Below are positions 9,588-25,697 of a DNA stretch of 25,697 bases, piece after piece. Numbering within the stretch: position 1 is the first letter of the stretch; each line of letters begins with the position of its first letter. The position numbers were made by a program, and so were the translations under genes. The stretch comes from a virus: positions 1-25,697 of IMG/VR virus record IMGVR_UViG_3300046373_000128. One strand, given 5' to 3'. The notes under the pieces were generated by a model. It saw only the letters and a program-made list of their open reading frames with translations, did not search any database and was not told where the DNA came from.

Positions 9588-11591
9588 CCACTCATTACAC
9601 CAGAACTGCGAGCGGGAGCGGCAAGTAGATTGCCCATCTTCTCAATTGCATCCATGTAGGCTGGGTTCTTAGCGGCTTGCTGAACGGCAACGCGCAATGC
9701 GGACTTGTTGTCACTTGTCAGCAGCTTGCCAATTTGCTCCATAACCTTGGCGTCTGCCCGCTGGCCAAGGAACTTGGCAGCACGAGGACCGGCCGCGCCG
9801 AGTAGCGCCCCTTTCCAATCTCCGGTGATGCCAAACCCAGCCGCACCACCAGCACCGGCTCCAATGCCTAGTTCAATGAGTTGACGTGCCGTAGTGGAGT
9901 TGCCCATGGAACCGCGAAGACGATCAGCAATGTCCTCGACGCGCACATACGCTTCAATCTCACGCATCTTCTGGGGCCCAAAGACGAGCGACATAGACTC
10001 TCTACCTGCCTGCGTCTTGAAGACCGAGTTGATGACATTGGTCCGGTCACCAGATGCCTTGATGCGATCGATCAATTCCGAAGCGTAACCTGTCGCAAAT
10101 GCGTCCTTTTCGGCCGGTTTGAACGATTGGAAGGCTTTGACGGCTTCAGGAACTAGCTTAGGAGTGGTCGCAAACTTCTTTCCTGCCTCCAGGGCATCTT
10201 CTGCCCCGAAGAAACCAGCGGCGCCCTGCCGTGCGTTCTTGAATGCAGGAACAGCGCTATCGAGTTCGCCAAGAAGCTCATTCTTCAGGCTGGTGAGTTC
10301 CGCAGCCCGCGTCCTATCGCCCCCGGTGATGAGTTTTCCGATGTCAGAGTCAAGATTGCGCTTGACATGATCCCAAAACTGCAAGGTTGGCGTGACCAAC
10401 GTTCCATCAGCCTTGCGCTGGAGGACGTAAGCACCCTGGCTGTTCTTCGCAAATGGGTTTGCCATCTCCTTGAAGCCATCGATCGCGCCACGGTCAGCAC
10501 TGCGCTGCGGAACCTTGTCTACAGCCCTGCGGAAGGAAGGCTTCCGGCGCCGAATAGGCCGCTGCATAGGCTGGTTTGTTGACCTGCCGAGCCGTGGCGC
10601 GGATAGCCTCTTGATAGGCCAGATCGTCAGCGCGGCCACTGGTCAGCTTGCTTACAAAGTCTGCGGCTCGCTGGCTTTGCGCTCCAAACCGGTCACTGGC
10701 AGTATTTTCAATGACTGCCCGCGCTTCCGGCGACTGATTGGCTACAGAGCGAGCAAGTGCACGCGTCGTCTCGCCGCCCCGATCGGCATTGACCACAGGA
10801 ATGTTATTTGCCGCTGCAGCCGCTTCGTCAGCGCTGTTCATGAGCATGGTGGGGTTTGCTTCGACATCCCTTGTCAAAGCCATGCCCAGACGGCGGGAGG
10901 CCTCTGCTGTTGGGTTTGTCAGAGCGTTGACCGTGGGAGCGATGCGGCTACCAATAGCCTTAGCGCCTGCGCTGATACCTGCGCCAACCAGAGGAATAGC
11001 GCCACCGATGCCAACACCTATAGCACCGCTTCCTGACGCCTCCTGCCCTGTGCCGCCACGCGCCAGACTATCAGCCCCAGAGATTGCACCGCTCGACAGA
11101 GCGGACATGCCAGCACGGGAAAGAAGGTTCGGGCCGGTGATACCGAGCGCACGGGCCCCTATACCTGTAGCGCCAAGTGGGACCAAGCTAGCAACATTAC
11201 CCGCCACCTGCCCCGCCACGTTGGAATACGGGTTGACCTCCTTAGCGTTGGCGACTGCGTTTTGACCCTGCTGGAGGTTTTGGCTGTAGCTTTCACCATC
11301 AATCAGCGAGGACAGGCCAGCAGCAGCACGCTCGACGCCACCGAGAATGGCAGGCCCAGCGATCGGAACGCCCTCAAGAGCGCCCGTCAATGCCGATCCT
11401 GCCATGCCGGATAGGCTGTTCTGCTTTTCCTTGTCGAGCAAAGCAGCGCCTTCCTCAAAACTGAGGTGCTGCCCTTGCGTCTTTGGAACAGACTCGGGGA
11501 ATTTGGCCGCAATGATGCTCTTGATCTGATCGGCTGGCATTGTGTCAGGGAACTGGACCTGAACACCATCGGGCATCTTTACAATCGGCAT
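9581..11591 (-). pseudogene. Internal virion (DNA ejection) protein, split by a frameshift
   Basis: The N-terminal frame begins with ATG at 11591 (MPIVKMPDGVQVQFPDTMPA) and runs to a stop at 10494. The C-terminal frame runs on to 9581 (ending SGVMSGQ) without a convincing start or ribosome site. Protein sense crosses frames near 10520-10560. The first frame reads well to YSAPEAF and then becomes unlikely. The second reads well from about FRRAVDKVPQRSADRGAIDG. The shift is +1, from one extra base or an out-of-phase deletion, near GAAGCCTTCCTTCCGC. The product would be about 670 residues with many Ala/Gly-rich helices and Ala/Gly-rich hydrophobic stretches (about 55-190 and near the C-terminus). 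This fits P22-type proteins that leave the capsid with the DNA. If real, the shift probably destroys an essential virion protein; assembly error is the alternative. Confidence 0.75.
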
Positions 11592-24910: not shown

Positions 24911-24948
24911 TGAAACGAGAAACCCCGCCACCAATGAAGGCGACGGGG
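24911..24948 (-). terminator. Intrinsic terminator-like hairpin after the tRNA segment
   Basis: Read on the minus strand, CCCCGTCGCC pairs with GGCGGGG (24948-24923; one small bulge) around a 9-base loop and is followed by TTTCTCGTTTC. This would end transcription coming from the tRNA-Tyr and separate it from the late genes. The bases 24811-24910 show no gene or clear promoter. Confidence 0.6.
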
Positions 24949-25002
24949 CGAGTGAGGATACTTGCGGAGATCAGACCGCGTAGAGCCTCTGACGTGAATG
25001 AT

Positions 25003-25087
25003 TGGTGCATGGAGAGAGAATTTGCACTCCCACAGCCTAAGACGGGCGCTTTACAGGCGCTTGGGCTCACTCATGCCCAGTCCATGC
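25003..25087 (-). tRNA. tRNA-Tyr (GUA), class II, CCA encoded
   Basis: The minus strand folds as a tRNA. A perfect 7-bp acceptor pairs GCATGGA (25087-25081) with TCCATGC (25013-25007), followed by A and encoded CCA. The D stem is GGGC/GCCC. The anticodon loop CTGTAAA carries anticodon GTA (25054-25052) on a mostly paired stem. There is a long variable region of about 13 bases, as in class II tRNA-Tyr, and a T arm of GGGAG and CTCTC. Total length is 85 bases with CCA. The T loop is odd: it starts TGC, not TTC, and has eight bases in this fold, so function may be reduced. It is phage-borne and upstream of a terminator, on the late strand. Confidence 0.8.
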
Positions 25088-25487
25088 TTAATGTGTTGCC
25101 GAGGACCGTCGTAACGATCGCGCAATAGATGTCATGCTCTCAGCTCAGAACTACTTACCTCATCAGTCTAATGAGGCCACAAACTGACTAGGCTTGCCGG
25201 TTCGCTCTGATATCGTCATCGGCGCTGCAGCGTTACCTCACGATCAGGATACCCCAATCCCTTGGAGCCGATGATGGCTTTGGAATGGCTCAGTAGGCGC
25301 TGAGCTTGGTGGACTAGATTTATATCCCGGAGCCTAAGTTCCGGTGACAATTACCACCGCCACCCCTCAACCGAATGCCGGGTAGGCATTTTTCATCCCA
25401 AACTGAATTCATCCGGGGTCATTGCCACCGGACCAGCCAACAGAGGGCTTCTATCCGCCCGCGTCTCTATGGCTGCACTCTCTTAAA
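25088..25487. other. Non-coding, hairpin-rich segment between the two tRNA elements
   Basis: No convincing protein gene lies here; the short frames lack ribosome sites and sensible composition. Several hairpins stand out: CCTCAT/ATGAGG at 25158-25176 with a 7-base loop, GCTCAG/CTGAGC at 25288-25305 with a 6-base loop, CCGGA/TCCGG at 25327-25344 with an 8-base loop, and GGTG/CACC at 25343-25358. Sizes recall D and anticodon arms, but I could not complete a tRNA with paired acceptor strands. Beyond the tRNA-like element, 25568-25697 holds only the hairpin CAGAC-GGAA-GTCTG (25582-25595). Confidence 0.4.
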
Positions 25488-25567
25488 TGGCTCCCCCGGC
25501 TGGAAATGCACCAACGGCCTCGCTTACTGGTGCACCAGGGCGCGCTCTACTTCTGAGCTACGGGGAA
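25488..25567 (-). pseudogene. tRNA-like element with aberrant anticodon arm
   Basis: The minus strand gives a tRNA outline. Acceptor TTCCCCG pairs with CGGGGGA (one G-T pair), then G and CCA; TA follows at 8-9, D stem GCTC/GAGC with loop AGAAGTA, and T stem GTTGG/CCAGC with loop TGCATTT. The centre does not form a normal anticodon arm. Instead of 17 bases it has about 22, with outer CGC/GCG pairs and the perfect palindrome CTGGTGCACCAG (25527-25538) as an inner hairpin with a 4-base tip. No U33-anticodon-purine loop can be placed, so it is a decayed tRNA or a tRNA-like RNA. The T loop has the same TGC start as the tRNA-Tyr nearby. Confidence 0.55.
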
Positions 25568-25697
25568 TTGAAACTCTTAACCAGACGGAAGTCTGATCAT
25601 GCGATTACGGTAGTCTGCCTCTTTTGATTTGGCAATAGGCCAGATGTAATTAATCCATCTAAACCAAGACGTAACCAGGTTAATTGACGCAAAGGCA

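Follow-up and report, generated by a model that had tools for sequence, protein, structure and literature searches.

Comparison of two sequences leads us to favour, as rather probable, the view that the element described here is a phage-borne, non-decoding tRNA-like RNA, which is descended from an A18/G55 phage tRNA and is common to two nearly unrelated alphaproteobacterial phages. The window, by which we mean the whole stretch of DNA analysed, is a complete IMG/VR record of 25,697 bases that represents part of a tailed phage and may be a fragment. The element occupies positions 25567 to 25488 on its minus strand, and from its sequence was rated as a pseudo-tRNA or tRNA-like RNA. Comparison of its two known copies favours a tRNA-like RNA that does not decode over simple decay of a tRNA.

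Structure of the element and its homologue

The minus strand from 25567 to 25488 forms a complete cloverleaf with a 7-bp acceptor, a 4-bp D stem, a 5-bp T stem and a terminal GCCA, and reads TTCCCCG TA GCTC AGAAGTA GAGC G CGCCCTGGTGCACCAGTAAGCG AGGCC GTTGG TGCATTT CCAGC CGGGGGA GCCA. The acceptor strands (TTCCCCG, 25561-25567; CGGGGGA, 25492-25498) form seven of seven pairs, including one T.G. The D arm (25544-25558) has the stem GCTC/GAGC, and the T arm (25499-25515) forms five of five pairs, GTTGG/CCAGC, again with one T.G. A variable region (25516-25520), a discriminator G (25491) and CCA (25488-25490) complete the body, all on the minus strand. Assignment of the whole as a tRNA-like RNA draws on this sequence, on a homologue in another IMG/VR stretch, L359, and on the match of that homologue to the Rfam tRNA model.

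Where a 17-nt anticodon arm would be expected, the element carries a 22-nt extended hairpin (25521-25542, minus strand) that folds as CGC-C-CTGG-TGCA-CCAG-TAA-GCG, with outer (3-bp) and inner (4-bp) stems on either side of a 1x3 internal loop and UGCA as the tip. The 4-bp stem and tip together form a 12-base palindrome, CTGGTGCACCAG (25527-25538, minus strand), identical in L359. No 5-bp stem with a 7-nt loop and U33 could be drawn in this arm. An earlier reading, made from the sequence of the window alone, had described the acceptor, D and T arms, the CCA, the palindrome and its 4-base tip, and all were present as described, on the minus strand. It was also right that a palindromic hairpin has been substituted, although the change involves the whole arm, at 22 rather than 17 nt, and not the anticodon loop alone.

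The elbow of the cloverleaf is also unusual. In tRNAs these positions are usually G18 and pseudouridine 55. Here, A18/G55 replaces G18-U55, with G19 and C56 present, so that the D loop (AGAAGTA in the window, AGGAGTA in L359) contains A18-G19 and the T loop (TGCATTT and TGCAGTT, respectively) contains U54-G55-C56. These features place the element, as judged from its loops, in a wider class of tRNAs with A18/G55 instead of G18/U55. A58 of the T loop is absent from both copies, position 58 being T in the window and G in L359. A missing A58 that differs between copies would be unexpected for a tRNA body under full constraint, and counts against such constraint.

The letters of the T arm recur in the altered arm of the same molecule (TGGTGCA..CCAG in both; 25499-25515 and 25527-25538, minus strand), and because of this repetition the altered arm may have arisen by copying of the T arm. 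Descent of the arm from any particular tRNA was also considered and was set aside, as no convincing alignment was obtained.

Neither ARAGORN nor Rfam made a call at the element site in the window. Of 400 windows simulated with the dinucleotide composition of this one, 15 contained a perfect 7/4/5 cloverleaf with CCA (mean 0.04 per window), so that on the window alone the element would be no more than suggestive. What confirms it as real, from sequence comparison, is its homologue in L359 (9975-10054, minus strand). This copy reads ATCCCCG TA GCTC AGGAGTA GAGC A CGCCCTGGTGCACCAGTAAGCG AGGAC GGTGG TGCAGTT CCACC CGGGGGT GCCA. It scored 32.7 bits with the Rfam tRNA model (cut-off 29), and received no ARAGORN call. 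With model R1, the two copies scored 110 and 111 bits, against 58.5 bits for the best ordinary tRNA.

Of the 80 positions, 8 are different between the two copies. Half of these changes are compensatory and affect two pairs, with T-A becoming A-T at the end of the acceptor and T.G becoming G-C in the T stem; the other half lie at unpaired positions. Each copy retains all 23 base pairs of the structure as written. When eight random substitutions were simulated two million times, all pairs were kept with P = 0.0068, and all pairs were kept with at least two double changes with P = 1.8 × 10−4 (0.018%). A row-shuffle control, in which the observed value was reached in 118 of 500 shuffles, says little, as there are two rows only. 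The 22-nt arm is identical in both copies (P = 0.066 for remaining unchanged by chance), and it shows no covariation because only two copies are available.

These results bear on the proposal of the sequence-only reading that preservation of the end domains, with loss of the decoding part, reflects selection rather than decay. The sole relative carries an identical altered arm, and the covariation sought in the acceptor and T stems was found as the two compensatory pairs; both support this core of that reading, whereas the roles that it suggested, a decoy for tRNA-cleaving defences or a processing signal, are more tentative. Relatives with an ordinary tRNA and random changes, the case given as contrary to it, were not found, L359 being the only relative known. 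The palindrome recurs in that relative. It is invariant between the two copies, however, so nothing distinguishes selection for a palindrome from selection for simply a hairpin.

Predicted folding was unremarkable relative to shuffled sequences, which did equally well or better in 17 of 200 cases for the window copy and 36 of 200 for the L359 copy. As a monomer, the window copy has its predicted energy minimum in a fold other than the cloverleaf (−30.5 versus −28.5 kcal/mol for the cloverleaf), while for the L359 copy the cloverleaf is the minimum (−30.8 kcal/mol). Homodimer formation through the palindrome was considered, with predicted gains of −12.9 kcal/mol for the window copy and −16.9 kcal/mol for the L359 copy. 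The former gain was reached by 36 of 474 ordinary tRNAs and 58 of 300 shuffles, and the latter by 1 of 474 and 8 of 300. Dimerisation is not claimed, since ordinary tRNAs reach the predicted gains. The idea that the palindrome is a repeated DNA operator was likewise dropped, since the window contains it exactly only once; allowing for as many as two mismatches gave two matches, the exact one included, against 1.44 expected. The exact palindrome occurs in 5 of 521 loci (L001, L358, L359, L479 and L488). These are accounted for by the window and L359, each counted twice, and two chance matches, less one duplicate count.

Genomic setting and distribution

The window encodes a partial integrase (45-731), an endolysin, a major head protein, a portal and a terminase, the best named matches of the terminase being in Microcystis phage Mae-JY35 (71%) and Rhizobium phage RHph_Y1_10 (70%). 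The element lies at the right end, within about 0.9 kb without convincing genes. The phage of L359 is close to Rhizobium phage RHph_I3_18 (terminase 73%, major capsid region 85%), and its element is internal, between an HNH endonuclease gene and a presumed small terminase gene. In both phages the element is in non-coding DNA ahead of packaging genes. When open reading frames of at least 90 aa were compared, the window matched the L359 phage only in the terminase (27% over 204 aa) and portal (41% over 78 aa), and by this protein comparison the two phages appear almost unrelated.

The 130 nt upstream of the element could be aligned between the phages (score 3.0 versus −19.2, s.d. 5.3, for 100 shuffles), while the 130 nt downstream could not (−18.5 versus −22.4, s.d. 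5.1, for shuffles). Within the aligned part is a promoter-like sequence (25607-25635, minus strand), TTGCCA (25630-25635) and TACCGT (25607-25612) separated by 17 nt, which has the same spacing in L359 (TTGCAA, 17 nt, TACCGT; about 10091-10120, minus strand). Scans for consensus promoters did not call these sites, and we infer a promoter from the alignment. In each phage, 36 nt separate the end of the 10-mer CTACCGTAAT (25604-25613 in the window) from the element; 7 of 486 loci contain this 10-mer, which is about the chance level. Between the promoter-like sequence and the element, a small inverted repeat, CAGAC-GGAA-GTCTG (25582-25595), was read from the sequence, and at the corresponding place L359 has a different inverted repeat, GCTGA-8-TCAGC. 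Because the upstream sequence aligns and the promoter-like spacing is common to both phages while the downstream sequence is not alignable, the upstream sequence and the tRNA-like RNA would form a unit that either moved between phage groups or was kept while the genes diverged.

Two further features of this non-coding DNA were noted. A 13-mer, CCATTCCAAAGCC, is common to the stretch ahead of the late genes in the window (about 25276-25288, minus strand), L359 (9875-9887, minus strand) and RHph_I3_18 (L481, 42530-42542, plus strand), and is absent from all the others among 486 loci; in the window and L359 it is 3′ of the element. The corresponding stretch of RHph_I3_18 (L481, 42366-42520, plus strand) contains a long inverted repeat, AGTTGGGCGG ... 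CCGCCCAACT, without an Rfam match.

The element is rare. An IMG/VR scan for the D arm followed by the palindrome returned two stretches, L358 and L359, and across the IMG/VR pattern scans L359 was the sole true relative. No cloverleaf accompanies the palindrome or arm fragment present in L358 and L479, which were rejected as chance matches. Searches of phages and plasmids with blastn returned tRNAs, none with the altered arm among the matches examined (L002-L005 and L483-L486 were fetched and scanned with model R1). Model R1, applied to 93 sources, identified the two copies, after which came tRNAs and low-scoring matches (17.1 bits in L018, 16.5 in L483); applied to 98 of the 119 loci of L086-L204, it identified ordinary tRNAs only, the best at 58.5 bits. 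It found no copy in L480, L481 and L482, the nearest named relatives of each phage, with no match in RHph_I3_18 or in the examined regions of RHph_Y1_10 and ppBjS10J-1. ARAGORN called no genes in 60 of at least 80 terminase relatives. Finally, with up to three mismatches allowed, no copy was found in alphaproteobacterial genomes, in samples that overlap in part: 0 of 385 in a class sample (searched with a longer pattern), 0 of 39 in one family and 0 of 397 in an order sample. Comparison of groEL across 40 genomes, intended to pick out Rhizobiaceae, set no family apart.

The A18/G55 class and a second RNA in the window

The elbow found in the element also occurs in many phage tRNAs and some bacterial ones. 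Scans of IMG/VR gave at least 119 stretches for A18 with G55 (L086-L204; 83 distinct sequences among the matches listed, not all of them tRNAs), 37 for A18 with U55 (complete) and at least 120 for G18 with G55. Among full cloverleaves in the loci examined, there were 67 distinct A18/TGC, 16 A18/TTC, 168 G18/TTC and no G18/TGC sequences. A cloverleaf finder with no prescribed D-arm letters identified 474 distinct tRNAs in 488 loci, of which 77 were A18/G55, 386 G18/U55, 4 A18/U55, 1 G18/G55, 3 G18/C55 and 3 others. On this comparison positions 18 and 55 covary, with 5 mismatched among 474; as many loci were fetched for A18 and G55, the table shows dependence and not frequency. Loci not fetched for A18 gave 222 G/U, 1 A/U, 0 A/G and 1 other. 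The 77 A18/G55 tRNAs have 29 anticodons, as read by position.

In a scan of bacterial and archaeal genomes (L360-L478), 94 of the 119 loci listed hold an A18/G55 tRNA, and 68 of the 95 matches among them have the anticodon loop CTGAAAA of tRNA-Phe. In a SAR11 draft genome, the sole tRNA-Phe called by ARAGORN around 27 Rfam tRNA matches is at the site of an A18/G55 tRNA, so the A18/G55 elbow is compatible with decoding. The suggestion that A18/G55 marks a non-decoding RNA is opposed by this tRNA-Phe and was rejected. Invisibility of A18/G55 tRNAs to annotation was rejected as well, since ARAGORN calls one in 47 of 53 loci (the exceptions being L103, L116, L117, L118, L121 and L127).

Combinations of D and T loops have reportedly been examined in suppressor-tRNA studies. 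An A18-G55 tRNA elbow was not found in the literature searched, which covered few subscription papers, and the single whole-word match concerned transposases. Both A18 and G55 are absent from PMC7912444, and A18 from PMC7566577. The accessible portion of PMC4810234 describes only G18 with pseudouridine 55, and its reference list includes work on the 18-55 pair in translocation.

A second RNA with this elbow, a tRNA-Tyr (GUA) with an 8-nt T loop, was identified in the window about 400 nt downstream of the element (25003-25087, minus strand), from an alignment of 10 sequences and pair counts. Its D loop is ATGAGTGA and its T loop TGCAAATT. Of the ten aligned sequences (the window, L002-L004 and L489-L494), nine have an elbow of this kind; these nine come from the window, Rhizobium phages X66 and TM16, a Sinorhizobium plasmid, Caulobacter phages SC, PW and Colossus, Brevundimonas phage Kabachok and Sphingobium phage Lacusarx, the T loop in TM16 being CGCACATA. 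The tenth, from Mesorhizobium phage Cp1R7A-A1, has canonical loops. In the alignment, 90% of 230 cells are paired and 23 of 230 unpaired, two rows having a shifted acceptor, and 15 of 23 pairs are changed on both sides, a value reached by 0 of 500 shuffles. ARAGORN called only the canonical Cp1R7A-A1 sequence among the ten, and Rfam at cut-off missed the window tRNA-Tyr and the eight others with this elbow (nine were submitted). A group of tRNA-Tyr from alphaproteobacterial phages and one plasmid thus escapes the annotation tools tried. After the tRNA-Tyr there is a terminator-like stem with a T-rich tail (24922-24949, minus strand), a weak signal with one found against 0.7 expected in shuffles, which is a possible end of a transcript of the two RNAs.

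Interpretation and comparison with known systems

Given ends that are kept by compensation and an arm with no 7-nt loop with U33, the simplest reading is that of a non-decoding RNA that uses a tRNA body. Transcription would probably start at a putative promoter immediately before the element, within the non-coding DNA that precedes the packaging genes. The ends of the transcript would probably be trimmed like those of a tRNA, which would leave a stable product already bearing CCA; both the trimming by tRNA enzymes and the stability are what general tRNA biology would predict. With an extended arm that has no way of presenting a normal anticodon loop, the RNA would act through a partner that binds the tRNA body, either a protein or a second RNA that recognises it. 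Provided that the RNA is made, the phage has kept a tRNA body whose decoding part is gone, and the body itself would then be useful to the phage. This would also offer a way to ask which functions, other than decoding, phage tRNAs have.

What that use might be can be stated only tentatively; candidates are a decoy, a processing tag or a scaffold. One special case of the favoured reading is that the RNA is a decoy or inhibitor of host defences that target tRNA, in which the body would bind a nuclease and the absent anticodon loop would make it uncleavable. We hold this to be unlikely. Phage tRNAs that counter tRNA-cleaving defences are reported in the accessible parts of PMC11555353 and PMC10264068, the altered arm is without the part cut by anticodon nucleases, and a tRNA-Tyr, named in the accessible part of PMC11555353 as the target of retron-Eco7, is in the same stretch. 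The phage tRNAs described in those parts of the two papers are, however, supplied or mutated and not anticodon-less, and neither phage is linked here to a defence system. Less likely again is a second special case, a processing or stability signal of a transcript at the early/late junction, with ends cut by tRNA-trimming enzymes and a passive arm. The position ahead of the packaging genes in both phages would fit this, as would the promoter-like sequence close upstream together with the kept tRNA ends; yet an unchanged 22-nt arm is left unexplained, and in the window more than 2 kb, several open reading frames and the weak terminator-like site separate the element from the terminase. More boldly, promoter and anticodon-less tRNA-like RNA together may be a mobile module that passes between unrelated alphaproteobacterial phages and stably mimics a tRNA body. 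It might, for instance, compete in uncleavable form for host proteins which bind tRNA or cut it, possibly as an arm-to-arm dimer joined by the palindrome. Such a module is speculative, though we give it slightly more credence than the decoy.

Three other explanations depart from a functional non-decoding RNA. An A18/G55 tRNA gene in decay, with an anticodon arm damaged once and inherited by both phages through recent exchange, would account for the loss of A58, for 90% identity and for rarity, with no copies in three alphaproteobacterial genome samples. Against it, all eight differences avoid breaking a pair and four of them compensate, and the flanking 130 nt are strongly diverged downstream while alignable upstream; we regard decay as improbable to about the same degree as the decoy. 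That the element is a decoding tRNA with an unusual anticodon arm is very unlikely: A18/G55 tRNAs do decode, as the SAR11 tRNA-Phe indicates, but the arm allows no 5-bp stem with a 7-nt loop and U33, and A58 is missing. The least credible explanation is that the element serves for phage attachment, its sequence having been copied from a tRNA of the host as a target for the integrase. tRNA genes are common integrase targets, according to the accessible text of PMC3399842, and the window carries the partial integrase gene. This gene is at the opposite end of the window, however, and so not beside the element; the integrase of RHph_I3_18 is about 17 kb from the corresponding stretch, and the L359 element is internal, between phage genes.

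Among the known systems closest to the element are the A18/G55 tRNAs of phages and bacteria, identified here in public contigs, with which it shares the cloverleaf, A18-G19 and U54-G55-C56, and which gave the best ordinary matches to model R1 (58.5 bits for L182, 56.3 bits for the tRNA-Thr of L486). These tRNAs have a normal 17-nt anticodon arm and A58, and the element has neither. The tRNA-Asn of MT838259 (L005) is similar in the acceptor, D arm and T stem, as found by blastn and alignment, but differs in its normal anticodon arm (GTT), G18/U55 and A58. The tRNA-Other of Bacillus cereus, as described in the accessible text of PMC3399842 and compared by that description, is likewise a tRNA-like RNA that adjoins mobile DNA, and is non-functional in translation; unlike the element, it is bacterial and keeps a Trp anticodon. 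Phage tRNAs that evade anticodon nucleases, as presented in the accessible part of PMC10264068, resemble the element in having an altered anticodon region, though there the alterations are single loop changes in working tRNAs, whereas in the element the whole arm has been replaced.
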